This document shows, piece by piece, positions 14,605 to 26,390 of a DNA stretch of 26,421 nucleotides (its first letter is position 1; every line of letters begins with the position of its first letter). This DNA comes from a virus. The position numbers and the translations under genes were made by a program. The notes below the pieces were generated by a model that was given only the letters and a program-made list of their open reading frames with translations, was not told where the DNA came from and made no database searches. The DNA is taken from positions 1 to 26,421 of the IMG/VR virus record IMGVR_UViG_3300029268_000112, one strand, 5' to 3'.

Positions 14605-14741
14605 TTAACTTAAACCAGAAATCGTTCCATGACAGAACGCGCCTGGATTAATTACCTTGTACGCAGCAGAAGAAAGAAATCCCTTCTGAGCCTTCAAGTC
14701 TGTAGCAGTAATCAGCGTAGGTGTAGTGAACAGAGGAATAT
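14605..14741 (-). CDS. Major capsid protein, exon 3 (native C-terminus)
   Basis: The last 137 nt of the capsid gene (2 nt of a split Tyr codon, 44 codons, stop). Joined to exon 2 they give CPYIPLFTTPTLITATDLKA and end GTISGLS. The join is placed by the intron 2 end: intron ...AAAAATG, exon ATATTCC, where ATAT can pair with the ATAT next to the guide sequence (P10). The same 44-residue sequence is also encoded, with other codons, at 15763-15899 directly behind exon 2. Codon style here (GC at 16 of 44 third positions) resembles the body of the capsid gene more than the intron copy does (8 of 44). The endonuclease frame in the intron reads into this exon in phase. Confidence 0.8.
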
Positions 14742-15621
14742 CATTTTTGTTACCATCACGAATGATGGGCTTAGTGATTTCTAGTTCTCCTAAGCTCCTA
14801 ATATCGCTACTAGGATCAGACTGTACCATATTCTCTTTCGAGATTTGTCGATTACAGTCGTTGAACCTCTTGTCATTATGAAAATTAACAATCTTTGTTA
14901 ACAAACTAACTCTATTAGAATCTACTAATTCGGATTCCCAAATAATAAGTAAATCATATCCGTGATCTTTAAAAAATTTTATTCGATCAAATTCAGACAT
15001 AATATTTGGAAATTTATTAGCATCATGCCAATAGTCGCCGAACATATCAATCATTTTGTTATTATTAATTGATATAATATCCGGATGTCTATTACCGACT
15101 AACTTTCCGCCTTTCGGATAATTTAATTGATAACAGCCAGGTAAAATTGATTCCAAAATATTAATAAGATAAACTTCTTTATCATTAGGGAAAGTCTTAG
15201 ATGCCCGAATTACATTAGTAATACGGGTAGTATTTTTAGCAAGCTTGCTTTTAATCTTAGCACGTACTTCCGGCCTTTTAGCTGGATTCTTATCCCCAAT
15301 CATCCTAAGAGGTGTATGTTCTGCACAATAAGTTGAATCACTATATGTTCTTATTTTGCAAACTGGACAATACTGCCAAGTATCTTTATACTCTTTCCCA
15401 TCCCTATGTAATATCATATTTGTTATCATTTCTAAAGAATGTTTCTTACCATAAAATGGATTATTTTCACCTGTTAATTTGTTAACTCGATCATCTGATG
15501 TAAATTTAGTTATTCCATATAATTTAGTAGCTTCATCTTCAGTTATTTTATGTTTTCTTAACAAATGTATCTGCAAGAAATCATATCTACTATCGCATAT
15601 AGGACAACTTAATTTACCCAT
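14605..15621 (-). CDS. Intron 2-encoded homing endonuclease (reads through into exon 3)
   Basis: 338 codons, of which about 293 are intron sequence and the last 45 (including the split codon) coincide in frame with capsid exon 3. The N-terminus is a C2H2-type finger (LSCPICDSRYDFLQIHLLRKH), followed by NNPFYGKKHSLEM (NUMOD3-like) and a CPVCKIRTYSDSTYC cluster. The nuclease part has HPDIISINNNKMIDMFGDYW and closes with YDLLIIWESELVD, as in Vsr-like PD-(D/E)XK homing nucleases. A GGAG site lies 6 nt before the ATG at 15621. The codons past about residue 245 also form ribozyme helices P7, P8, P3 and P9, so the true nuclease probably ends near there. Confidence 0.8.
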   Translation of the reverse strand: MGKLSCPICDSRYDFLQIHLLRKHKITEDEATKLYGITKFTSDDRVNKLTGENNPFYGKKHSLEMITNMILHRDGKEYKDTWQYCPVCKIRTYSDSTYCAEHTPLRMIGDKNPAKRPEVRAKIKSKLAKNTTRITNVIRASKTFPNDKEVYLINILESILPGCYQLNYPKGGKLVGNRHPDIISINNNKMIDMFGDYWHDANKFPNIMSEFDRIKFFKDHGYDLLIIWESELVDSNRVSLLTKIVNFHNDKRFNDCNRQISKENMVQSDPSSDIRSLGELEITKPIIRDGNKNDIPLFTTPTLITATDLKAQKGFLSSAAYKVINPGAFCHGTISGLS

Positions 15622-15899
15622 TCATAACTCCAATTTGGCTGCTGATTGACCGCACTAAAACATTTTTACTATTTCTAGTAGTTTTAGATACTCGGTTATT
15701 CCAGCAAGTTTCGACATTTTCTATATAAATTTCTTTATATAGCCGCATATATATCCCTTCCTTTAGGATAATCCGCTTATTGTTCCATGGCAAAACGCGC
15801 CTGGATTTATTACTTTATACGCTGCTGAACTTAAAAAACCCTTTTGGGCTTTAAGATCTGTAGCAGTAATTAAAGTACTTGTAGTAAAAAGTGGAATAT
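14742..15899 (-). ncRNA. Group I intron 2 in the capsid gene
   Basis: Core pairings are visible on the minus strand. P2 is a 9-bp stem with a GAAA loop (15721-15742). P3 pairs TGTCGA (15711-15716) with TCGACA (14846-14851). P4 pairs TTGCTG (15702-15707) with CAGCAG (15639-15644). P5 pairs CTAAAAC with GTTTTAG (15681-15687 and 15655-15661). P7 pairs GACTGT (14854-14859) with ACAGTC (14819-14824). P8 is TCTC-GAAA-GAGA (14832-14843). A P9-region hairpin CCATCA-TTCG-TGATGG lies at 14753-14768. The exon end CCGT can pair with GCGG (15743-15746), giving the U-G pair at the splice site, with P10 next to it. The endonuclease ORF sits in the P6 loop. P1 has an unusually long loop holding a recoded copy of exon 3. 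Confidence 0.85.
15763..15899 (-). repeat. Recoded copy of capsid exon 3 inside intron 2
   Basis: This 137-nt stretch continues the exon 2 reading frame and encodes the same 44 C-terminal residues as exon 3 (14605-14741), with one change: Ser instead of Pro at capsid residue 453. By direct codon comparison 25 of 44 codons differ synonymously, 18 are identical and one is changed. Both copies end in TAA and have equal length. It lies between the predicted 5' splice site and the guide sequence, in the P1 loop, so unspliced message makes a complete capsid protein. Confidence 0.9.
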
Positions 15900-16984
15900 A
15901 CGGGCAGAATGCAAATGCGCCTTGAATAAAACTGTCACCTTTCCATCCAAAGATTATTTCAGCTGCAGATAAGAACGGATCATGAACAACAACGCGACCG
16001 TCCAGTGTACCTAAAACATAAGGACCTGTAGGTGTAATACCGTCAAGACCGGGAGCGGCTTTAAAGTTCGGAGCCAACTGACGAATAAGTCTTGATGTAT
16101 CGTTACCGGCAATAATCCAAGAACATTGCATCCTTAATGTCTTAGCTAAGATGTTAACGTTTGCTTTTTCAACGAAATCAAGGAACTGATATTTCTTCCA
16201 AATCCATTCTGCGCCAGTAGCAACAGTAGCGGAGAAATCGCCTGGAGTAGTAGCACAGCCAGTACCAGTTGAAGCATCGTTGATCAAGTCGATACCTAAG
16301 TGGTCCATCGTAACACGAACTTCTCCACCTAAATATTTTACTACTTCGTCTTCAAGAGAAAGACCATGAGCCTTCTGAAGATCAAATGCAGCAGCTAAGC
16401 TGTATTGAGCCATCAGAGGGAAATCCTCGGCAGTTACTGTCTCATAAGTTAAGTCGAAATTAACTGAAGGAACAGCAGCTGAGGTCTTTGTTTCGTAGTT
16501 GTATTTGTATGTTGCGCTACCAGATGTGATCGCGAGGTCATTTGTAATTTCAATTGCACCAGTTGTATAGTTGATTGTACCAGCTTCAAGTAAAGAAGCA
16601 TCGTCAGCAACCAATACATTCGCGCCATTATCTGTATATGTACGAGTACCACCTGCATCTACAATGGTAATAACTGCAGAACCGGCAATTACAGGAATAT
16701 AAGCTAATGTACCAGTTTTAATGTTCGCAGCTTGTCCGACTTTAGTTGTCAAAACAACAACTTCGTCCTGAACTCTCGTAGAAGCATACCTACGACCAGC
16801 CCTTGTTGTATTATGGCCAGTTTTTGCAGCCATCATATTTGAATCTGCAGCAATTGCGCCTTTAGCCTGACCATACTTCACGTCAAGATAAAAAACTCCG
16901 CCAGATCGGCGGTCTAAAGCCTGAACAATCGCCAACTCGTTTAATACTGTGCTAGGAATAAGAGCAGCTATAATAGGTAACTGT
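15763..16984 (-). CDS. Major capsid protein, exon 2 plus intron-encoded tail (T4 gp23-like)
   Basis: True exon 2 is 16984-15900; the frame continues through the recoded tail to 15763. After splicing to exon 1 the protein is 490 residues. The exon starts with QLPIIAALIPSTVLNELAIV, then DRRSGGVFYLDVKYG, equivalent to the gp23 stretch of IPNLIAFDICGVQPM and GQVFALRAVYG. Later come LEDEVVKYLGGEVRVTMDHL, WIIAGNDTSRLIRQLAPNF, LDGRVVVHDPFL and FAFCPYIPL, all in the gp23 order. The HK97-fold protein builds the head shell. An apparent start at 17082 (MFQIAPSSQNR) would add 33 codons that overlap intron helices P3, P7, P8 and P9, so I do not take it as the real N-terminus. Confidence 0.9.
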
Positions 16985-18097
16985 CGTTCTGTAATCTCTT
17001 CTTTAGAAGAGTGTCGGACTATATCATCATCCTCAAAATATTTACTAATTCTATTTTGGGAGCTGGGCGCTATTTGAAACATTATTAGACCTTTCGTCTT
17101 CAGTTTCTAGTCTCTGCACCTTACAATTACTTAATTTATTGTCCATATTATCTTGTAATTCAGACAATAGAAAGGGTAACTGTCTTGGCTCAGGATTACC
17201 ATAAAAATAATTAAAAATATCTTTAGTATATAAACCATACATTAATCCATTAACCTTGCAATAATCTCTAAGAGCATTTAATTTCGTTATCGTTAACTTA
17301 TCATTTAATAAATGTGAACCTTTTATTTCAATTATTGCAATAGTTTCATTATTCACATTTAAAATTTTAAAATCTGGATAAGTATTATGCCCGTCATATG
17401 GAATAGCAAGTTTACTGCGCTGAACTATTAATAGAGAACCTATTCGGCGTTTAAATCCATGCAAAAATTCAAGTTCTAATCCAGAACCGTAGAATACATT
17501 ATCAAAATATCCACGTTTAACCTTTCCATAAAGTGATAATGAACTTCTAAAATCAATACCTTCTTGTGATGAATTCCATTCGTTCATCTTTATGGCAGTT
17601 CTATCATGATATTCCGGATCTGACCAAATCTTTGTCATTGATTTAGACATTTTTTCTCGTTTTAATATTGCCTTTTCTATTCCCATTTGCTCTTCATAAG
17701 ATCGAGAACTCTTTTCACTTAATTGTTTTCTAATTTGCAAGGCCTTCTGGATACCGTATTGCTGTTCAAAAGTTTTACAGCGTCTTTTATCGCCAGACAC
17801 TTTCCCACCAATCTTAGTAAATCCCGTTTCCATTACTGTTTTAATAAGACCGGCTCGTTGTTTAGCTATCTTCTTATTAGCGTGTTCTTCACCATATCTT
17901 TCAATATATGATACCCCAGCTAATAAATGATTCTGATAACTAATATGACAAGACCGACTACAAAACTCGCGTTTCGACGGTATTTCCTTTGAACATTGTC
18001 TACAAATATTTTTAACTTTATTTTCCATTAGGCTTCCCTGAATTCACCCAGTTATTAAAATTGGATTACTCCAATTTGGGACACAGTTTAATTACGC
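16985..18097 (-). ncRNA. Group I intron 1 in the capsid gene
   Basis: The exon end GGGAT with the next GC pairs with GTGTCCC (18078-18084), forming P1 with U-G at the splice site. Exon 2 start ACAGTT (16984-16979) pairs with the adjoining AACTGT (18088-18083) as P10. P2 is AAATTGGA-GTAA-TCCAATTT (18058-18077). P3 pairs CTGGGTG (18045-18051) with CGCCCAG (17063-17069). P4 pairs TTCAGG (18037-18042) with CCTGAG (17189-17194), within the typical core strings TTCAGGGAAGCC and AATCCTGAGCCAAG. P7 pairs AGACTA (17108-17113) with TAGTCC (17016-17021), preceded by GTGCAGAGACTAGA. P9 is CTCTTC-TAAA-GAAGAG (16996-17011). A P7.1-like hairpin suggests a subgroup IA intron. Length 1113 nt, with an endonuclease ORF in the P5 region. 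Confidence 0.92.
17051..18028 (-). CDS. Intron 1-encoded homing endonuclease, PD-(D/E)XK type
   Basis: 325 codons. The N-terminus has an ICRQCSKEI...FCSRSC zinc finger, then RYGEEHANKKIAKQRAG-type helical DNA-binding repeats, ending with a nuclease domain with a Glu in GLELEFLHGF and the pair YPDFKILNV and AIIEIKGSH, a clear PD...ExK active site. The ORF begins within the P4-P5 part of the intron, and its 3' end is folded into ribozyme structure: GNPEPRQ is encoded by the P4-P6 core string and CKVQRLETED by the P7 region, so these last 50 residues are constrained by RNA. The weak ribosome site suggests low expression. Confidence 0.85.
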   Translation of the reverse strand: MENKVKNICRQCSKEIPSKREFCSRSCHISYQNHLLAGVSYIERYGEEHANKKIAKQRAGLIKTVMETGFTKIGGKVSGDKRRCKTFEQQYGIQKALQIRKQLSEKSSRSYEEQMGIEKAILKREKMSKSMTKIWSDPEYHDRTAIKMNEWNSSQEGIDFRSSLSLYGKVKRGYFDNVFYGSGLELEFLHGFKRRIGSLLIVQRSKLAIPYDGHNTYPDFKILNVNNETIAIIEIKGSHLLNDKLTITKLNALRDYCKVNGLMYGLYTKDIFNYFYGNPEPRQLPFLLSELQDNMDNKLSNCKVQRLETEDERSNNVSNSAQLPK

Positions 18098-18348
18098 ATC
18101 CCTAAGAAGTCGATGTTACTAGAATCAGTAGTTTCAAAAAGTTTCGAAACCCTTGATTTACCAGCATTTAACAGAGCGTTTTCTGCGCAACGAGATATGT
18201 TGTGCTTCATATTCTCTGTTAACTCTTTTCCTTGTTTCTTCATATAACCTTCAGCAGCTTTGATAATCGGTGCCCATGCTTCAGACAACGCGGTTCTCTC
18301 TGCATTCTGAGCGGCCATACGCGATTCTAATAATTCGTTGATCTTCAT
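18098..18348 (-). CDS. Major capsid protein, exon 1 (propeptide)
   Basis: 83 codons plus two bases. It encodes MKINELLESRMAAQ, SEAWAPIIKAAEGYM and later SRVSKLFETTDSSNIDFLG. This matches the gp23 propeptide plan (a W.P.I..EG stretch, then a helix, then a cleavage site), and KLFE, residues 69-72, is an LxE site like FLTE in T4 gp23, where the prohead protease cuts. Removal would leave a mature protein of about 418 residues. Without splicing the frame gives only an 86-residue product ending GMRN. Codon 84 (Ile) is completed by exon 2. AAAGGAG lies 11 nt before the ATG. Confidence 0.85.
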
Positions 18349-18371: not shown

Positions 18372-21300
18372 TTATTGCCCCATTGCTCTAAAAGCGGAAG
18401 CAATTTGTTTAGATATTACTGATTCTTCAATCGGCTCGCCAACATTGATCTCGGTCACAGGATTAAAGTGTAATCCATTTCCTCTAATCATGTCTTGAAC
18501 CATTTCAATAAGTTTATCTACTTCCGATACTGACTTACATGATTCGAAAAGTGTTCGAACATTGTCAGGAAGCTTCAAACCCATTGTTTTGACCTTTGTT
18601 TCGGTATATGTCTTAACGAGCCCCATAGCGTGGGACTCTTTAAGCAATCTAATTTGCTTCTCATTTGATTCTTTAAGCTGCTTTATTTGATCTTCGATAT
18701 TCTTCAATTGTTTTTCTAATTTAGATTTTATTTCTTCGGCTTTTGCTAATGCAGAAGATTTATCACCTAATTTTTCATTCAATTCTTTTATTGTCTTCTT
18801 CGATTCTTCTAATTCCCCATGCTCTTTATGAAAATTAGCAGAAACTTTCACCAATTCCGCTGTTTTTGCATCCAAATGGGCAGATACGTCTCTTAGCTTA
18901 GAAGACAAATCTGAAACATCATGCGTATAATTTGCGGATACTTCGTTAACTCTCTTCTCTAATACAGTACCTAATTCAATTGCCTTATCCCGTTCGGCAA
19001 TTAGGATTGCTTCAGAAACTTTTGTTTTAGACTCATTATTAAAACCGACCCTTAATAATTCTTTAAAAAATGCGGGGTTTTCTTTCATAATTCTCTGCAT
19101 TTCTTCTTTATCTTTTTTATCTGATTCCTCATTCGCTTCCTTAGCCTCTACCGTAGTATTAACCGTCTTGATCTCGCCCTTACCGTCTTCCCTCTTCTCT
19201 TTGTACTCTTCGGCCTTCTTGTCTTTAATATCCTGTTTGTCGATAATATCTTGCTTGACAGTTTCAGGTGTTGTAATTGCCGCTTCATTCTTCTTTTCAT
19301 TCATATAAGTCTCGGCTCTCTTTAACGATTCTTTATATTCCCAAACCATTGTTGAACACTCTATAATTTTTTCTTGCCGTAAATCAATAACTATATCTAT
19401 CTTTTTGCCCATTTTCTTTTCTAAACTGTCAGTTATTTCAGATATTTGTCCTTGATAATCGGTAGTAAATACATTAGAATCTATTGCAACAAAAACATAA
19501 TTTTCAGGCATAAATATAATATACCCGCCTATTAAATACTTATCCTCTTTTTTATATCCTAATTCAATTAAATCCTTTTTGCCATCATAATATTCTAATT
19601 TAGCAGAGCCAGTATTATATACCCAAGTGCCAATAGGTAAAGCTCCACGTTGTACAATAGACCAGGACCTAGATAAAACGGTTTGTTTTTTCTGTTCATC
19701 AGTTAAGTCTTTAAAGTCTTCAGTTAATCCTACTATTTTAATATATGCTTGATTTAAAATCAGACTCTCACCTATCTTCATGATCTCAGCTTCCAATCCA
19801 CGTCTCTGAATTTCTTTCATCAGTGCATCGACTTCCTTGTTTAATTCTTGATGATCGTCAGAAGCCATTGATTTATACCTAGTTAATATCTCTTCATTGG
19901 ACAATTTGGAAAGATCTGCAGATTCAGTAATATCCTTTTTCTCTCCCGGCCCGCCAAATTCATTCTCTAATTCAGCTTCAGTTTTATCCACCAATTTCTT
20001 AAATTCAGCAGGACTGATTCCCCTCTTATCCGCATATTTCTTGGCCAATTCCGGATCGTCTGAACCTGAATTAATATAGTCAAGAATATCAGCCGGAACT
20101 TTCTTACCTTCCACCACCTTCGATTCCTTCATCAATGAATCAGGATAATGTTTAGACATTTTATTTTTGTTATTGGCCCAGAATAAATCGGCTTGTTTAC
20201 TATACTTGCCCTTCCACCAATTTGCAGCAGCAACATTCGCCTTATCTTCTGGCCATCCTAATTGAGATTGACATTCAGCAGATACTGAACCGAAATTATT
20301 ACCGCCGACTCTACCTGCTATAACACTTATTTGCCAAGCTTCTTTATCGGTCAAAACTAAACTCGCCTCTTCTACCTTGGCTTCAGTTACTACCATAAAA
20401 TCCTGAGCCGAATCGTCTGAATCTAATTCAACTATAACCTTATTACCGTCCGCTTTCATATGAATAATATGCTTATTGCGTAATTCCTTAAACGTAGTCT
20501 CATTTGTTTTAGCTTCATTCGACACCTTAGCTCCTATCCACTTTACCTTATTAGATTTGCAAGCCGGACAAATCATTCGATCGTTTTGATCTACTGAAAC
20601 TGCAAATATATCTCCATTCCATCCACAGTCAGGACAGAACATTTTGCAGCTTTCGTCTAACGATTCTTTCAATTCTTCTCTAGTTCGAGCAATAACCTTA
20701 GGCAATAACTCCTTCAGCAATAAAACATTGTTCTCAGGATATTTCTCCCCTATTACTTTAACTATCTCTTCATCAGTATTGCCATCTATCACCATGTCCT
20801 TTACGACCGCTTCAATATCGTCGTAAATACCTTCGTCTAACTCCTTTAATTCATCCTTTAAATCTTTGGTAATGGTTTTGATCTTCTCAGTATCATTGTT
20901 AATCTTTTGAATATCATCTTTAATGGCCTCATCGACAATTGCAGCATCACAGCATGAACTCTTGTCATCGCCTTGAGTTACTCGAGCCCCACATTTAGAA
21001 CAGACTTTGCCATGGGCGATCTTGTTGTCGTCGTTCTGATAGTCTTCTTTTACTTCAATTTTATTCTTTAATTTCCATAATTCACCCGATTCTAATTTAG
21101 AAATCTGACCATCGTTTTCAGCCTTTTCTATTTCATCCTCAATTACTGATAATGCCGGTCTATTTATATAATTAGGATTGGTAATCATATCTACTAATTC
21201 ATCGTATCTTCTGCTTTCTTTTACTTCGACTTCGTTAGCATGCTCACATCCGCCACTACACTTCTTTTCCCCTAACTTACATTTACACTCTTTATGCTGC

Positions 21301-21959
21301 TTGTCTATAGAAATATCTTCTTTCAGCTTGAGTGCCTTCTTCGATCCGGCCTTTTCTAATAAAGCAATAGCAACATTTTTATTTATAGCATGAGATTCAT
21401 AATTAGTCCGTACCGCTTTAACAATATCTTCAGGTTCAGTTTTAGAACAACTAGGATCCCCAGTGTGATCAACTGTAATAAATTTATATGAATCAGGTAT
21501 TACTCGACTATACTTCTCGCCCGATTCATCAACTTCTTCTGATAATTCACCATCGGCCCTAGTACTTGCTGGAACTTTTACGCCTGCTTCATGTAAAATC
21601 CAAATGAACTTTCCAGAATCTGTAGGAAGTATATCAAAATCAGCTTTAACCTCATTAGTAGATTCATCTATAAACATATTACTAATAACATGTGAAGTCC
21701 GATCTTTATCTAATTTAATTGAAGATTCGGCTGGATGCTCATGCTCGCCTAATATTTGTCTAGCCTTTAATTTACTTTGAAATTCGGGATCATTAAGAAC
21801 ATTATCCCAGACTTTCCGTCCATAAATCCGTTTATTAGCATTTTTTTCGTCAATTACACAAATAGTCCGACGAATTCTAGCCAAAATACCGGATGGCAAT
21901 TTTTTAGGATCGTTCTCTAAAATTTGTGTTTCATCTAAAATTCGTTCATTTAAATTCAT
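18372..21959 (-). CDS. Prohead protease fused to scaffold/core protein
   Basis: 1195 residues, several times the size of T4 gp21 (212) or gp22 (269). Residues 1-190 are the gp21-like serine protease: ICVIDEKNANKRIYGRKVW, RQILGEHEHP (catalytic His region, 69-76), TSHVISNMF and KVPASTRADGE (nucleophile Ser near 132). The middle carries three cysteine clusters (CKCKLGEKKCSGGCEH; VCSKCGARV...SCCD; FCPDCGWNG...ICPACK) and two unassigned ordered stretches. Residues from about 940 on are acidic and coiled-coil (LEESKKTIKELNEKLGDKS, EEIKSKLEKQLKNIEDQIKQ), ending in VISKQIASAFRAMGQ, like gp22 scaffolds. It would both form the core and, after self-cutting, mature the head. The ATG overlaps the upstream endonuclease stop (ATGA), with GGGAG inside that gene. 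Confidence 0.85.
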   Translation of the reverse strand: MNLNERILDETQILENDPKKLPSGILARIRRTICVIDEKNANKRIYGRKVWDNVLNDPEFQSKLKARQILGEHEHPAESSIKLDKDRTSHVISNMFIDESTNEVKADFDILPTDSGKFIWILHEAGVKVPASTRADGELSEEVDESGEKYSRVIPDSYKFITVDHTGDPSCSKTEPEDIVKAVRTNYESHAINKNVAIALLEKAGSKKALKLKEDISIDKQHKECKCKLGEKKCSGGCEHANEVEVKESRRYDELVDMITNPNYINRPALSVIEDEIEKAENDGQISKLESGELWKLKNKIEVKEDYQNDDNKIAHGKVCSKCGARVTQGDDKSSCCDAAIVDEAIKDDIQKINNDTEKIKTITKDLKDELKELDEGIYDDIEAVVKDMVIDGNTDEEIVKVIGEKYPENNVLLLKELLPKVIARTREELKESLDESCKMFCPDCGWNGDIFAVSVDQNDRMICPACKSNKVKWIGAKVSNEAKTNETTFKELRNKHIIHMKADGNKVIVELDSDDSAQDFMVVTEAKVEEASLVLTDKEAWQISVIAGRVGGNNFGSVSAECQSQLGWPEDKANVAAANWWKGKYSKQADLFWANNKNKMSKHYPDSLMKESKVVEGKKVPADILDYINSGSDDPELAKKYADKRGISPAEFKKLVDKTEAELENEFGGPGEKKDITESADLSKLSNEEILTRYKSMASDDHQELNKEVDALMKEIQRRGLEAEIMKIGESLILNQAYIKIVGLTEDFKDLTDEQKKQTVLSRSWSIVQRGALPIGTWVYNTGSAKLEYYDGKKDLIELGYKKEDKYLIGGYIIFMPENYVFVAIDSNVFTTDYQGQISEITDSLEKKMGKKIDIVIDLRQEKIIECSTMVWEYKESLKRAETYMNEKKNEAAITTPETVKQDIIDKQDIKDKKAEEYKEKREDGKGEIKTVNTTVEAKEANEESDKKDKEEMQRIMKENPAFFKELLRVGFNNESKTKVSEAILIAERDKAIELGTVLEKRVNEVSANYTHDVSDLSSKLRDVSAHLDAKTAELVKVSANFHKEHGELEESKKTIKELNEKLGDKSSALAKAEEIKSKLEKQLKNIEDQIKQLKESNEKQIRLLKESHAMGLVKTYTETKVKTMGLKLPDNVRTLFESCKSVSEVDKLIEMVQDMIRGNGLHFNPVTEINVGEPIEESVISKQIASAFRAMGQ

Positions 21960-22627
21960 GTTTTACTCCCAATTAAATTATCTATTTCATCTTCCCAAAT
22001 AAATATAACTTTATAACCGGCAGTTGTAAATGGTAGAGAATCTATCTTCTCAACTGACCGTTTATTTTCCTCAGTAATTTCTAAACCATATTTACGTAAA
22101 TGCCAGTAAATACCGTGAAAAAGAGCAACGGTCTTCAATTCTTCAGAATAAGCATCCGGCGATCGACCATTTATTAAAAACGTACAATCACCAGTATATT
22201 TAAATTTGTTATTATAAATGGTATTTAAATAATTTAAAGCTTTCCCCTCAAATATATTAGGTCTATAACTAGCTTTAAAATATGATTGTTTTAACCATTT
22301 TTCAAGTCCGATCTTTTTTATTACCTTTTTCATACTAACAGATTTCTTTGCCTTCGAAATTATCGCCTTTTCTTCGCCAAATCTTTTATCAAAAGACATT
22401 CCTGTTAGCCGTTTACTTTGTATTTCAGCTAATTCTTGTATTCTTTTATCCGTTTCTTTAGACAAGCCCTTATTCCATGGATCATTTGGAAAATTATGTT
22501 TATTTGATTTCCGTTTTTTTGGACTTTGATTAAAACATATTATTCCACAAACTTGATTCTTTCGATCTTTAGGATGAACATATTTTTTGCCACAGACAAT
22601 GCATATTCGTTCATCTTTTGTGCTCAT
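21956..22627 (-). CDS. Free-standing homing endonuclease, Vsr-like with zinc finger
   Basis: 223 residues. N-terminal zinc finger ICIVCGKKYVHP...VCGIICF, then NDPWNKGLSKETD (NUMOD-like) and helical FGEEKAIISKAKKSVS. The nuclease part includes FEGKALNYL, a SPDAYSEELKTVALFHGIYW strand pair and the closing YKVIFIWEDEIDN, similar to the other Vsr-type proteins here. The usual acid after PD is less clear (VALFHG in place of V-E), so activity may be reduced. It stands between the cold-shock gene and the protease-scaffold gene and contains the latter's ribosome site. No intron core is seen. Confidence 0.75.
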   Translation of the reverse strand: MSTKDERICIVCGKKYVHPKDRKNQVCGIICFNQSPKKRKSNKHNFPNDPWNKGLSKETDKRIQELAEIQSKRLTGMSFDKRFGEEKAIISKAKKSVSMKKVIKKIGLEKWLKQSYFKASYRPNIFEGKALNYLNTIYNNKFKYTGDCTFLINGRSPDAYSEELKTVALFHGIYWHLRKYGLEITEENKRSVEKIDSLPFTTAGYKVIFIWEDEIDNLIGSKT

Positions 22628-22649: not shown

Positions 22650-22868
22650 TTACTTTTCTACTGCTTTAACCTCAAGTACCTTAACTTCAGTCGCGACCTT
22701 ACCCTTAGCACTTTCACCTGGAGTAAACTCAACAGCCTGTCCGTCTAATAGATTCTTGTAACCATCCATGACAATACTCGTGAAGTGAACAAAATAATCT
22801 AATTGATCCTCACCGTTTACAAAACCCCAACCTTTTTGCTTGCTGAACCATTTCACTGTACCGTACAT
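22650..22868 (-). CDS. Cold-shock domain protein (CspA-like)
   Basis: 72 residues, the size of bacterial Csp proteins. It has the start YGTVKWFSKQKGWGFVNGED with RNP1 (KGWGFV), RNP2 (YFVHFT) and the DGQAVEF strand and TEVKVLE end. It should bind single-stranded RNA or DNA and may melt mRNA structure. In a late operon with two self-splicing introns, a role as RNA chaperone is attractive but untested. AAAGGAG precedes the ATG. Confidence 0.93.
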   Translation of the reverse strand: MYGTVKWFSKQKGWGFVNGEDQLDYFVHFTSIVMDGYKNLLDGQAVEFTPGESAKGKVATEVKVLEVKAVEK

Positions 22869-23100: not shown

Positions 23101-24207
23101 TTACGCCTTGGACTGAATCAGACCATTCACAACTGTTATTGTGAAATCCCATCCATCGATGAAGGTACCAGTAAACCCACTTACTGCTCCAGAATATCCT
23201 GAGAATCCAGAGATTCCAGAGTAACCTGATTTGCCAGAGTACCCACTGAATCCAGAGATTCCTGAATAACCAGAAATACCTGAGTATCCTGAAATTCCAG
23301 AATACCCGCTGAATCCAGAAATACCAGAATAACCAGAGAATCCACTTATACCCGAATAGCCAGAGAATCCAGAGATACCTGAATAACCTGAAAATCCAGA
23401 GATACCAGAATAACCTGAGAATCCACTTATACCACTATACCCGCTATAACCTGAAATTCCTGAATAGCCAGAAAATCCTAATGTAGTAGGTTCTCCTGAA
23501 ATTCCAGAGTATCCGCTGAATCCTGAAATACCGCTATATCCAGAGATACCAGAATATCCTGAAATACCGGAATATCCACTATACCCTGAGATACCTGAAT
23601 AACCAGAATATCCTGAGATTCCTGAGTATCCGGAGATTCCACTATAGCCTGAATATCCTGAAATACCCGAGTAGCCAGAGTAACCAGAGATTCCAGAATA
23701 ACCACTAAATCCGGAAATACCTGAGTAACCTGAAGTTCCCGGGCTATCTCCTGAATATCCTGAAGTTCCTACTCCTGAATAACCAGAGATACCAGAATAA
23801 CCTGAGTAACCAGAAATTCCGGAGTATCCACTGAATCCTGAAATACCGCTATATCCTGAATAGCCTGAGATTCCAGAATATCCACTGAATCCTGAAATAC
23901 CTGAGTATCCGGAAAATCCTGAAATACCAGAGTAACCAGAATAACCGCTGATTCCAGAGTAACCACTTATACCACTGTAACCTGAAATTCCAGAGTAACC
24001 TGAGATACCGGAATAACCAGAAAATCCTGAAATGCCTGAGTAACCTGAAATACCTGAGTAACCTGAGATACCTGAGTAACCTGAGATACCGGAATAACCT
24101 GAATATCCAGAGATACCTGAATATCCTGATTCCCCGCCGGCTTGACCAGAGATTCCAGAATAGCCGCTTGCTCCTGTACTGCCTCCACCACCGTGATATA
24201 TACTCAT
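23101..24207 (-). CDS. Collagen-like fibre protein, Gly-X-Ser repeats
   Basis: 368 residues. After MSIYHGGGGSTGASG nearly the whole protein is a run of Gly-X-Ser triplets with X almost always Tyr, Ile or Phe (GYS, GIS, GFS), broken by short inserts near GVGTSGYSGDSPGTS and GEPTTLG. The C-terminal 27 residues differ (FTGTFIDGWDFTITVVNGLI) and resemble the small trimerising ends of phage fibres. Strict Gly at every third place supports a collagen triple helix, although X is aromatic and proline is nearly absent. Probably a head or tail surface fibre that may stick to cells or surfaces. GGGAG precedes the ATG. Confidence 0.85.
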   Translation of the reverse strand: MSIYHGGGGSTGASGYSGISGQAGGESGYSGISGYSGYSGISGYSGISGYSGISGYSGISGFSGYSGISGYSGISGYSGISGYSGISGYSGYSGISGFSGYSGISGFSGYSGISGYSGYSGISGFSGYSGISGYSGYSGISGYSGVGTSGYSGDSPGTSGYSGISGFSGYSGISGYSGYSGISGYSGYSGISGYSGISGYSGYSGISGYSGYSGISGYSGISGYSGISGFSGYSGISGEPTTLGFSGYSGISGYSGYSGISGFSGYSGISGFSGYSGISGFSGYSGISGFSGYSGISGFSGYSGISGYSGISGYSGISGFSGYSGKSGYSGISGFSGYSGAVSGFTGTFIDGWDFTITVVNGLIQSKA

Positions 24208-24243: not shown

Positions 24244-24660
24244 TTACGCTAATGTTAAATCTACAATCGTAGCATTTGCTGCATATACTAATATAATAGA
24301 TGAAACTGCTGTAGCATCGATACACTGCTTGAACCCGTCTCCGGTAATCAAACTAGTTGCCGGAGTATTTGAAGCCGAATTGAAGAATACGTCTACCCGC
24401 CCAGTTACACAATAAATATCCAGATCTAAAGTGAAGTTTCCAGTAGGTACTGTAATTGTGTCTACTTCAGTATCGTCTCCAGTATATGATTCTGAAACTA
24501 TATTGCTATTACTTGCATATGGGGCATCTGAAGTCTTCGTTATCCCCGTAGGCAAAGGAGTTCTGATTGTCTCATATGTTTCCTTTGATTCCCCGGGTTC
24601 TATTCTTGTACTTCCGACTGTTACTACTGTTGCTGTACTGTTAAGATAGGTTGGACACAT
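24244..24660 (-). CDS. Small beta-rich virion protein, probable partner of the collagen-like fibre
   Basis: I choose the ATG at 24660 (MCPTYLNSTATVVTVG) because AAGGAG stands 6 nt upstream; a longer frame from 24687 adds nine residues inside the preceding endonuclease. The 138-residue product is beta-rich: STRIEPGESKETYETI, TITVPTGNFTLDLDIYCVTG, VDVFFNSASNT and ILVYAANATIVDLTL, the pattern of small phage surface or decoration domains. No family named. It lies 36 nt before the fibre gene. Confidence 0.65.
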   Translation of the reverse strand: MCPTYLNSTATVVTVGSTRIEPGESKETYETIRTPLPTGITKTSDAPYASNSNIVSESYTGDDTEVDTITVPTGNFTLDLDIYCVTGRVDVFFNSASNTPATSLITGDGFKQCIDATAVSSIILVYAANATIVDLTLA

Positions 24661-25606
24661 GTTCAACTCCTTCTTTATGAAATTCAATTAATTTTTGTTT
24701 TAATAATATTTTATCTTTTAACTCTTTTTCCCAAACAACTAAAGTTTTATAGCCATACTCACTATATTTTTGTAATCTATTATTATCTTTTTCTTCAGAA
24801 CCTGATATATTATGCCAATAATCTCCATAAAGCTCAACAATCTTCTTTTGACCGTTAATATTTATAAAATCAGGAAAGAATCCTCCTATCATAACTTCAA
24901 ACCCACCTACAAATTTGTAGTTACTAGGAAATAAATTATTTAGTATATCTAATAATTTTTGTTCTGATTTATTAATTTTTTTATTATGAGAACTAGCTTT
25001 AGTCATCATTAACATATGTTCTTTAGAATTAACTTGATTTGTTTTAGCTTCTTCCTTTTTAATTCCAGACATATTTTTACACACTTCATCTCGTTTTTCG
25101 GTATGTGACCAATGAGATTTGTCCCTCTTTGCTCGATATTCAGGACTTTTCCACATATTTAATCTGGCAATACTTCTATTCTGTATAGCTTCAGGAGTAG
25201 CATTACCAATTTTTCTTTTCTCTAATAATTTATCTCTTCGGATAGGATCAGACCATATTTGTTTCCAACCGAATAATTTATAATTTATAACACACAAATG
25301 AGAACAGAATTGTTGATCAGATCGCTTACCTATAAATATATTATTACATGTTAGACATTGCTTTTCTTTTATTTTAGATTTCACATTTTCTCTATAACAT
25401 TTTCGAGAACACACTTGTTTATATCCTTTAATTATATGAACAAATTTTGTAGAATTACCACATATTATACAACACCCATCTAATTCTTTCTTTAAGTATT
25501 TATCATAATAAACCCTAGAAGAAAGTTTATGCGTTCTCCATACATGTTTAGATAACCCTATTATAGTATTAAATTGTCTATTACATATTAAACATGTACA
25601 AATCAA
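24641..25606 (-). CDS. Free-standing homing endonuclease, Vsr-like with several zinc fingers
   Basis: 321 residues, with a TTG start supported by AAGGAG 6 nt before it. It opens with a C2H2 finger (CTCLICNRQFNTIIGLSKHV, then RTH), a CCIICGN...VCSRKC cluster and a CLTCNNIF...FCSHLC cluster, then basic helices with IWSDP and MWKSPEYRAKRD. The nuclease domain shows KSEQKLLDIL, FPDFININGQKKIVELYGDYW and TLVVWEKELKD, close to the intron 2 enzyme. Its end overlaps the next gene by 20 bases and holds that gene's ribosome site. Confidence 0.85.
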   Translation of the reverse strand: MICTCLICNRQFNTIIGLSKHVWRTHKLSSRVYYDKYLKKELDGCCIICGNSTKFVHIIKGYKQVCSRKCYRENVKSKIKEKQCLTCNNIFIGKRSDQQFCSHLCVINYKLFGWKQIWSDPIRRDKLLEKRKIGNATPEAIQNRSIARLNMWKSPEYRAKRDKSHWSHTEKRDEVCKNMSGIKKEEAKTNQVNSKEHMLMMTKASSHNKKINKSEQKLLDILNNLFPSNYKFVGGFEVMIGGFFPDFININGQKKIVELYGDYWHNISGSEEKDNNRLQKYSEYGYKTLVVWEKELKDKILLKQKLIEFHKEGVEHVSNLS

Positions 25607-25727: not shown

Positions 25728-26390
25728 TTATTCTTTCATTGATTCCTGAATCGACTTCAGTATATCTTTATTCTCTACATGAACTACTTTTCTCTTCGAC
25801 TCATATGGCTTCTTGTCGATCTTCATATTCAAATCATTAGCTAATCTTCTGATTTCGCTATCAGCACCTTCCCATGTTTCCCAAGCTTCAGAAGGAAGAT
25901 TGTCTACTACATAATCAGTTACTTCAGAATTCCCCTCTAATCCAGCCTTATGAGCCATTCTAACGAGCTCTTTGATCTTTCCTCTATACTGAGGGCCGAT
26001 CGTGCGAGCTTCTTTGATCTTCTTTGAATCTCTTTCCTTCTTGCTTAATGGAGTATAAGGATAAAGTGTTCCGGTACCTTTGTCGCCATCATCCACTTTG
26101 TCTTCCTTCTTCGCTTCTTCAGTAACTATATCAGGTTCTACAACTGGAGCTACTTCCTCTTTCTTCTCTTCTCCAGGAATACCAGTTATAGTACGATCGA
26201 TTGGTTGTACCTCAGGATTTACCGTCGTCACCTGAATTCCACCTTCTGTAGTAACGATGTTAGTTTCCTTATCCTCATCCTTTATTATTACCTCGACATC
26301 CTCTTGAACTTTGGTCTGAGCCTCATGTACTTCTTTTAATTTACTATCAACTAATTTAGCATATTTAGAAAGATCTTTTGTAGTTAACAT
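25728..26390 (-). CDS. Acidic protein related to the 472-residue head-region protein
   Basis: 220 residues. Residues about 26-62 (VQEDVEVIIKDEDKETNIVT, then EGGIQVTTV) match VKEDVDVTIKTEDKEVNIVS and EGGTQITTL in the gene at 8695-10113, followed in both by Pro/Glu-rich linkers. The C-terminal half is ordered: RTIGPQYRGKIKELVRMAHKAGLEG-type helices split by a Gly, then LPSEAWETWEGADSEI. The N-terminus (MLTTKDLSKYAKLVDSKLKE) is a helix with an LxE end, possibly a head-targeting peptide. Function unknown; a paralogous head-interior protein is the best guess. Confidence 0.6.
   Translation of the reverse strand: MLTTKDLSKYAKLVDSKLKEVHEAQTKVQEDVEVIIKDEDKETNIVTTEGGIQVTTVNPEVQPIDRTITGIPGEEKKEEVAPVVEPDIVTEEAKKEDKVDDGDKGTGTLYPYTPLSKKERDSKKIKEARTIGPQYRGKIKELVRMAHKAGLEGNSEVTDYVVDNLPSEAWETWEGADSEIRRLANDLNMKIDKKPYESKRKVVHVENKDILKSIQESMKE

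Follow-up and report, generated by a model that had tools for sequence, protein, structure and literature searches.

The window analysed here, the 26,421 nucleotides (26.4 kb) of IMG/VR virus record IMGVR_UViG_3300029268_000112, encodes a 1195-residue protein in which an N-terminal gp21-type prohead protease and a C-terminal, scaffold-like coiled coil are separated by a long modular insert. We give an even chance to the reading that this protein is a self-cleaving head-core polyprotein that supplies the phage head with a varying set of small proteins. The reading is based on (i) the fusion of protease and scaffold; (ii) the active-site residues of the protease; (iii) homologous ends surrounding a variable middle; (iv) a module shared with a second phage and bordered by joint-like sites, and (v) enrichment of candidate cleavage sites. 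Residue numbers refer to the 1195-residue protein, and coordinates are collected in Table 1.

A single reading frame beside the capsid gene

The open reading frame (ORF) is uninterrupted by stops and begins with an ATG that has GGAG six bases upstream; its start and the end of an endonuclease-like ORF (21956–22627) overlap by four bases. All 1195 residues are identical in a 92-kb contig (IMGVR_UViG_3300029286_001043, here G001) of the same virus, the DNA of which matches the window at 99.98% over 13.9 kb, a match that excludes the last ~116 window bases. As for gp21-type proteases, the gene lies between those for the portal (G001:45917–51196) and the major capsid protein (window 15763–17082), and the order portal, core protein, protease/scaffold, capsid protein is found both in the window phage and in the related phage G002.

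It is very improbable that the ORF is an artefact of assembly or annotation, or that its parts are made separately through an internal start or a frameshift. Candidate starts with weak Shine-Dalgarno-like sites do occur at GTG 479, ATG 522 and GTG 615, and T4 gene 21 has an internal start. However, no frameshift was found in the ORF and no strong Shine-Dalgarno sequence with an in-frame ATG was found before the coiled coil, while the same ORF is present in two contigs and homologous single ORFs occur in the relatives L030, L063, L064 and L065. A chimeric assembly, and a scaffold made separately from a clear internal start, were rejected on these grounds. The results bear out the initial annotation, which had placed all parts in one chain and had pointed to a frameshift or an internal start as the way in which they might be made apart.

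The protease and scaffold ends

Residues 39–146 match the Pfam family Peptidase_S77 with an expect value (E) of 3.5e-5 and 23.8 bits, under the 27-bit cut-off; the proteins of L030, L063, L064 and L065 score 38.1, 44.2, 32.4 and 32.1 bits. A family profile of 12 sequences (the window protein and 11 phage relatives) matches the T4 gp21 structure 5JBL at 5.5e-28, and His75, Ser132 and Asp164 are invariant across the 12 aligned sequences and in the alignment with gp21 from the T4 record. His-Ser-Asp is described as the triad of the T4 protease family (PMC5694885). The 5JBL chain, which carries alanines opposite His75 and Ser132 where the T4 gene itself encodes His and Ser, is taken from this comparison to be an active-site mutant. 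At about residues 1000–1113 the C-terminus matches only low-scoring generic coiled-coil families, and it matched no gp22 model. The profile match and the invariant triad confirm the gp21-like N-terminus of the initial annotation, and the low-scoring coiled-coil matches together with conservation within the clade are consistent with its scaffold-like C-terminus.

A tblastn search with the 1195-residue protein matched 27 of 50,697 phage records, all at the protease only, and residues 190–1000 gave no match at E 1 among 50,697 phage records. Scans of IMG/VR with single proteins (the 1195-residue protein, its residues 540–900, the capsid protein and the terminase) returned nothing beyond the virus itself, apart from a single capsid match at 32%. 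Cultured phages, reached via the protease matches and in other cases via the capsid protein and terminase, include single-chain fusions in Rhizobium TM61 (503 residues), Bacillus SP-15 (568), Listeria LIS04 (559), Acinetobacter Ab1-TPeters (465), GXN1 (558), Maribacter Molly_1 (432) and Xanthomonas phiXF1 (474); a separate protease of about 210–225 residues is found in Phosso, Atu_ph07, SCTP-2, Hallingskeid and Vibrio 2.275. Sixteen of the 26 non-self relatives in IMG/VR are single protease–scaffold chains of 472–592 residues, four of them ending at a contig end. The rest comprise one short protease of 273 residues, one protein cut by the contig end, the 846-residue protein of L030 with its long insert, and seven chains of 863–1029 residues. 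A contig scan added four relatives in metagenome-assembled genome contigs labelled Bacilli, Clostridia, Acholeplasmatales and Firmicutes, with protease frames of 497, 494, 543 and 148 residues. The protease–scaffold fusion itself is ordinary; what is unusual is the long, lineage-specific, modular insert with joint-like sites. The initial annotation had set the fusion against the separate gp21 and gp22 of T4, a contrast that overstates its rarity: because such fusions are common, T4 is the wrong yardstick.

The fusions of Molly_1, TM61 and SP-15, of the PHROG 207 type, share with the window protein the N-terminal gp21-type protease, the C-terminal coiled-coil scaffold and the position of the gene directly before the major capsid gene. 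They span 432–568 residues with little between the ends, whereas the window protein has 697 residues of modules there. At E 1 the 1195-residue protein has no match to PHROG 207, and four of its relatives match it.

The seven chains of 863–1029 residues (L048, L049, L050, L052, L053, L054 and L055) carry an extra N-terminal region and an S77 protease, above the Pfam cut-off in all seven, and by eye a C-terminal capsid protein, for which Pfam Gp23 matches in two of the seven, once above cut-off. They would be polyproteins that hold protease, scaffold region and capsid protein in one chain.

A variable insert with a shared module

A scan with the capsid proteins of the window phage and L030 recovered L060 and L062–L065, with capsids 38–50% identical, plus four more distant phages. 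The protease–scaffold gene adjoins the capsid gene in each of L060, L062, L063, L064 and L065. In the five complete proteins, the distance between the homologous ends, with borders hand-set from local alignments, is 697 residues in the window, 407 in L030, 324 in L064, 132 in L065 and 114 in L063; the proteins of L060 (at least 606 residues) and L062 (at least 537 residues) are 5'-truncated.

Window residues 373–436 match residues 6–64 of the L060 protein (the E value in Table 1 is from a search of the ORFs of the window virus together with those of 55 other loci). With an arrow marking the presumed cut, the matching stretches begin at LDE↓G and LQE↓G and end at KE↓S and TE↓S, respectively. 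No other insert piece had a match under E 1 in these ORFs. A short piece ending KNES or RNES is common to L062 and L064 (pairwise E 5e-7). Pieces from L030 and L063 also resembled one another or a 472-residue protein of the window phage, in short, compositionally biased matches (pairwise E 3e-4 and 0.004) that are not used as evidence.

The initial annotation had also described three cysteine clusters between protease and scaffold. All three are present; cluster 1 (225/227/234/238), however, lies directly behind the protease, and only clusters 2 (320/323/336/337) and 3 (438/442/445/464/467) are inside the insert. Cysteines equivalent to those of cluster 1 number four in L030 and two in L064, with none in L063 or L065. 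Cluster 3 matches NCBIfam YnfU at 6.8e-4, under the cut-off, and residues 437–483 are, from their sequence, probably a zinc ribbon. The structure prediction that had been proposed for the inserts was run on residues 179–962 with single-sequence AlphaFold2, which was too poor for folds (mean predicted local distance difference test score, pLDDT, 43.7; 38.6 for residues 732–877) and did not resolve the folded stretches; in the insert proper, values of 67–86 were reached at one place only, around residues 618–668.

Joints and the cutting motif

T4 gp21 is described as cleaving after L/I-X-E (PMC9026906), and SPN3US gp245 as cleaving after AXE, Ser being the preferred P1' residue (PMC10052503). 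The propeptide of the capsid protein ends in [LMV]xE↓[TA] in 8/8 aligned sequences, immediately ahead of the point where the conserved capsid domain begins; this gives a separate clue to the cutting rule. Motif counts were compared with shuffled copies of the same sequence, 5000 of them for insert residues 241–915. In the insert, [LIVMFKN]xE[SA] occurs 12 times against 3.8 in shuffled copies (p 0.0004; 2/5000 shuffles reach 12) and [LIV]xE[SA] 8 times against 1.9. The excess is gone when Glu is replaced by Asp (1 versus 3.3) or Lys (1 versus 4.5), or when the motif is reversed (2 versus 3.8). [LIVMFKN]xE[SA] is found 8 times in the scaffold against 2.7 and 4 times in the protease against 1.4. 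Across seven protease–scaffold proteins there are 88 occurrences of [LIVMFKN]xE[SA] versus 35.0 expected, compared with 154 versus 131.8 in 130 background ORFs of clade contigs and 67 versus 74.4 in 76 other ORFs of the virus (among which are a few overlapping ORFs and a fragment of a 758-residue protein). The joints divide the insert into pieces of 43–146 residues, near the size of the T4 internal proteins, given as about 8, 10 and 20 kDa (PMC9026906). Release of the inserts by the protease, as the initial annotation had suggested, has indirect support in comparative and motif evidence.

In a rival reading the insert is only an enlarged scaffold, its domains acting as spacers that give the core its shape or bulk and that are degraded along with the scaffold and gone before DNA is packaged. 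Among 14 plain fusions (16 existing minus 2 apparent duplicates), the scaffold part shows the same site enrichment in 10 and the Asp control in none; T4 gp22, gp67 and gp68 are described as degraded to small peptides (PMC9958956), and the net charge of the insert is mostly negative, whereas T4 internal proteins are described as basic (PMC9026906). We nevertheless consider an enlarged scaffold unlikely, though deserving of serious weight: site density is lower in the insert (12/675 residues) than in the scaffold (8/280), leaving stretches of 43–146 residues; the scaffold is conserved while the content of the insert varies; and modules recur in other proteins at 48–72% identity.

Several observations weigh against the self-cleaving, cargo-delivering polyprotein. 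The insert of the nearest relative, L030, is unenriched (2 versus 2.4) and has zero ES against 2.2. The strict T4 motif [LI]xE is likewise unenriched in the window insert (13 versus 10.6), and so is the general motif in the 472-residue protein (5 versus 4.4) and in a 457-residue protein of L030 (2 versus 2.2). Sites of the xxE type are present within modules (290, 661) and within the protease (99, 124, 145) as well, and the module borders were drawn from the very motif that is tested as a joint. No insert module has a significant match of known function in Pfam, NCBIfam, PADLOC or, by sequence, the PDB, and the models were unusable.

The unenriched 407-residue insert of L030 fits an arrangement in which the insert is cut off from protease and scaffold but not within, so that its modules stay tethered as one long multidomain internal protein, like polyvalent proteins; the 472- and 758-residue proteins of the window phage, multi-module chains that lack a protease, fit it as well. 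Sites are, however, enriched inside the window insert, and the shared module is flanked by sites in two phages, and we regard tethered modules as improbable.

Sister modular proteins

Two more proteins of the window phage and several of its relatives are, by sequence comparison, built like the 1195-residue protein. The 472- and 758-residue proteins have pieces in common at 59–72% identity. Counterparts of the 758-residue protein are the 457-residue protein of L030, encoded between the portal and protease genes, and a 1098-residue core protein of L064. The free-standing DUF5661 protein adjoins the 472-residue gene in the window, and DUF5661 is also embedded in a 503-residue modular protein of L060 (5.2e-8). 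No paper naming DUF5661 or DUF6582 was found in the literature searched.

Joint-like sequences recur in these proteins. In L064, ES[KRN]x[NV]E occurs 3 times in the protease protein (0.01 expected) and 5 times in the 1098-residue protein (0.03 expected). The 130 background ORFs hold 4 against 0.29, three of them in two modular-looking L064 proteins (760 and 271 residues) and one in a 583-residue L062 protein. The shorter ES[KR] is found 21 times versus 6.5 in the seven protease–scaffold proteins and 16 versus 4.0 in five sister proteins, with 21 versus 21.8 in the background.

Proposed model and comparison with known systems

In the model that we propose for the polyprotein, the N-terminal protease and C-terminal scaffold would carry the whole chain into the prohead core. 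After closure of the shell, the protease would cleave behind the Glu of short [LIV]xE↓S/A joints, destroying the scaffold, freeing itself and releasing the small modules at the same joints. The freed modules (two Cys-rich, several helical and one alpha/beta), produced in numbers equal to those of the scaffold, would be too large to leave easily and would stay in the head, from which they would likely be carried into the host as T4 internal proteins are. We infer the steps of this pathway by analogy with T4 and SPN3US, namely core entry via the scaffold, activation of the protease once the shell has closed, cleavage after xxE, escape of small peptides while folded pieces are retained, and ejection together with the DNA. 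Since the insert joints resemble the protease's own sites, one chain may be enough for the phage to make small proteins, cut them free and load them into its head; if the joints are interchangeable, modules could be gained, lost and moved between the 1195-residue protein and the two sister core proteins. A tentative extension, somewhat short of an even chance, is that the cargo is cassette-like, with protease, scaffold and changing internal proteins forming one polyprotein and the cutting motif serving as a standard joint. Any folded module between two joints would then be loaded in scaffold number and released in the head, and the same joints would let modules move among three or more core proteins.

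Herpesviruses provide a precedent, as the assemblin–scaffold precursor unites protease and scaffold in one self-cut chain, with no cargo modules between them. In herpesviruses an internal start additionally yields the scaffold by itself; the 1195-residue ORF shows no strong sign of such a start. T4 IPI, which is injected and inhibits a restriction nuclease, may serve as a model for what an insert piece does, not as evidence for it.

T4 brings protease (gp21), scaffold (gp22) and internal proteins (IPI–III and Alt) together in one core, where core proteins are described as cut by gp21 after (L/I)xE and the internal proteins as staying behind and being ejected (PMC9026906, PMC9958956). Unlike the window phage, in which cargo would ride in the protease/scaffold chain, T4 has separate genes for gp21 and gp22 and uses N-terminal targeting peptides. 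SPN3US and phiKZ (gp245–gp175) share with the window phage a gp21-like protease and, with the proposed model, cutting after xxE (in SPN3US the residue behind the cut is preferably Ser; PMC10052503) and many ejected head proteins, but their protease is separate, with its own C-terminal propeptide, and what most of their substrates lose is an N-terminal propeptide. Polyvalent proteins are described as multidomain phage proteins that are packaged and injected, a peptidase domain being frequent among them (Iyer et al. 2017, PMC5512222). The assemblin-like peptidase of some of them is stated to be always C-terminal (PMC5512222), whereas the window peptidase is the head-maturation protease itself, N-terminal and with the scaffold at the opposite terminus. 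Beyond the protease, the 1195-, 472- and 758-residue proteins matched no effector-type family above cut-off (Pfam, NCBIfam, PADLOC), NCBIfam and PADLOC yielded no effector or defence match, and a sequence search of the PDB with the full 1195-residue protein returned no useful match. Polyvalent proteins combine several different effector domains, mostly enzymes, in a single chain; with no recognisable enzymatic effector domain found, membership among them was rejected. A protease–scaffold with cargo inserts was not found described in the literature searched.

If the polyprotein reading is true, head-delivered proteins of uncultured T4-like phages could be found by a simple rule, reading between the xxE↓S joints of core proteins, and it would be explained how different cargo can enter a head in fixed amounts when no targeting signals of its own are present. 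The small changing modules would be candidate early counter-defence proteins, as T4 IPI is, and the arrangement would offer a ready-made natural scheme by which foreign proteins could be packaged into phage heads.

Features of the window and neighbouring genes

Table 1. Positions of the 1195-residue protein, its parts and related features in the window
Feature	Positions	Strand	Basis or remark
Whole gene: protease, modular insert and scaffold-like coiled coil, 1195 residues	18372..21959	minus	ORF intact
gp21-type prohead protease, residues 1–188	21396..21959	minus	His75, Ser132, Asp164 invariant, T4 gp21 included
Protease tail with Cys cluster 1, residues 189–248, ends VKE↓S	21216..21395	minus	sequence comparison
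Variable insert, residues 249–945	19125..21215	minus	homologous flanks, unalignable middle in relatives; xxE[SA] enriched
Putative module 1, residues 249–344, Cys cluster 2	20928..21215	minus	borders inferred from KES 248, DEA 344
Module shared with L060, residues 373–436	20652..20843	minus	48% over 61 residues, 4.6e-11; candidate sites LKE↓S 432, LDE↓S 436
Putative zinc ribbon, residues 437–483, CPDC...CPAC	20511..20651	minus	all matches under curated cut-offs
Putative small module, residues 484–526, ends VTE↓A	20382..20510	minus	sites only
Putative Trp-rich module, residues 532–612, ends MKE↓S	20124..20366	minus	sites only
Putative helical module, residues 613–679, ends ITE↓S	19923..20123	minus	sites and pLDDT
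Putative helical module, residues 680–731, ends IGE↓S	19767..19922	minus	sites; weak similarity to L030 insert, pairwise E 0.009
Putative alpha/beta module, residues 732–877, ends YKE↓S	19329..19766	minus	sites; fold not resolved
Scaffold-like coiled coil, residues 946–1195	18375..19124	minus	conserved in six relatives, E 1.5e-11 to 8.3e-6
Capsid-protein propeptide exon, 86 residues, presumed cut site LFE↓T	18088..18348	minus	
Second multi-module protein, 472 residues	8695..10113	minus	modules in common with 758-residue protein
Third multi-module protein, 758 residues, C-terminal part	25728..26390	minus	whole in G001:41375–43651
Free-standing DUF5661 protein, 162 residues	8180..8668	minus	8e-14

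The major capsid gene is split between the propeptide exon (18088–18348) and the body (region 16995–18348, minus strand), as is also seen at L056:2245–2988. The interruption is a putative group I intron (Rfam RF00028 at 16995–17254, 33.8 bits, under the 50-bit cut-off) with an endonuclease-like ORF, 17051–18028, inside; the capsid gene is interrupted at the same place in G002 and is whole in L060, L062, L063 and L064. A further endonuclease-like ORF, 14605–15621 (NUMOD3), contains a second copy of the last ~43 capsid codons, 77.7% identical over 121 bases, and L065 has a similar broken arrangement. In all, four endonuclease-like ORFs surround the head genes (21956–22627, 24641–25606, 17051–18028 and 14605–15621), three with weak or partial Pfam support and 24641–25606 recognised by eye only.

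The portal ORF (G001:45917–51196, locus L019; 1759 residues) carries, by eye, three intein-like insertions, each with a CLRGNT start and an HNF...HN end. Upstream of the protease gene, a small ORF at 22650–22868 resembles by eye a cold-shock protein, and 23101–24207 encodes a 368-residue collagen-like protein made almost wholly of GYSGIS and GFSGYS repeats. Near the tail genes, G001:409–3659 (locus L018) holds three consecutive radical-SAM-like ORFs with CxxxCxxC-type motifs recognised by eye.

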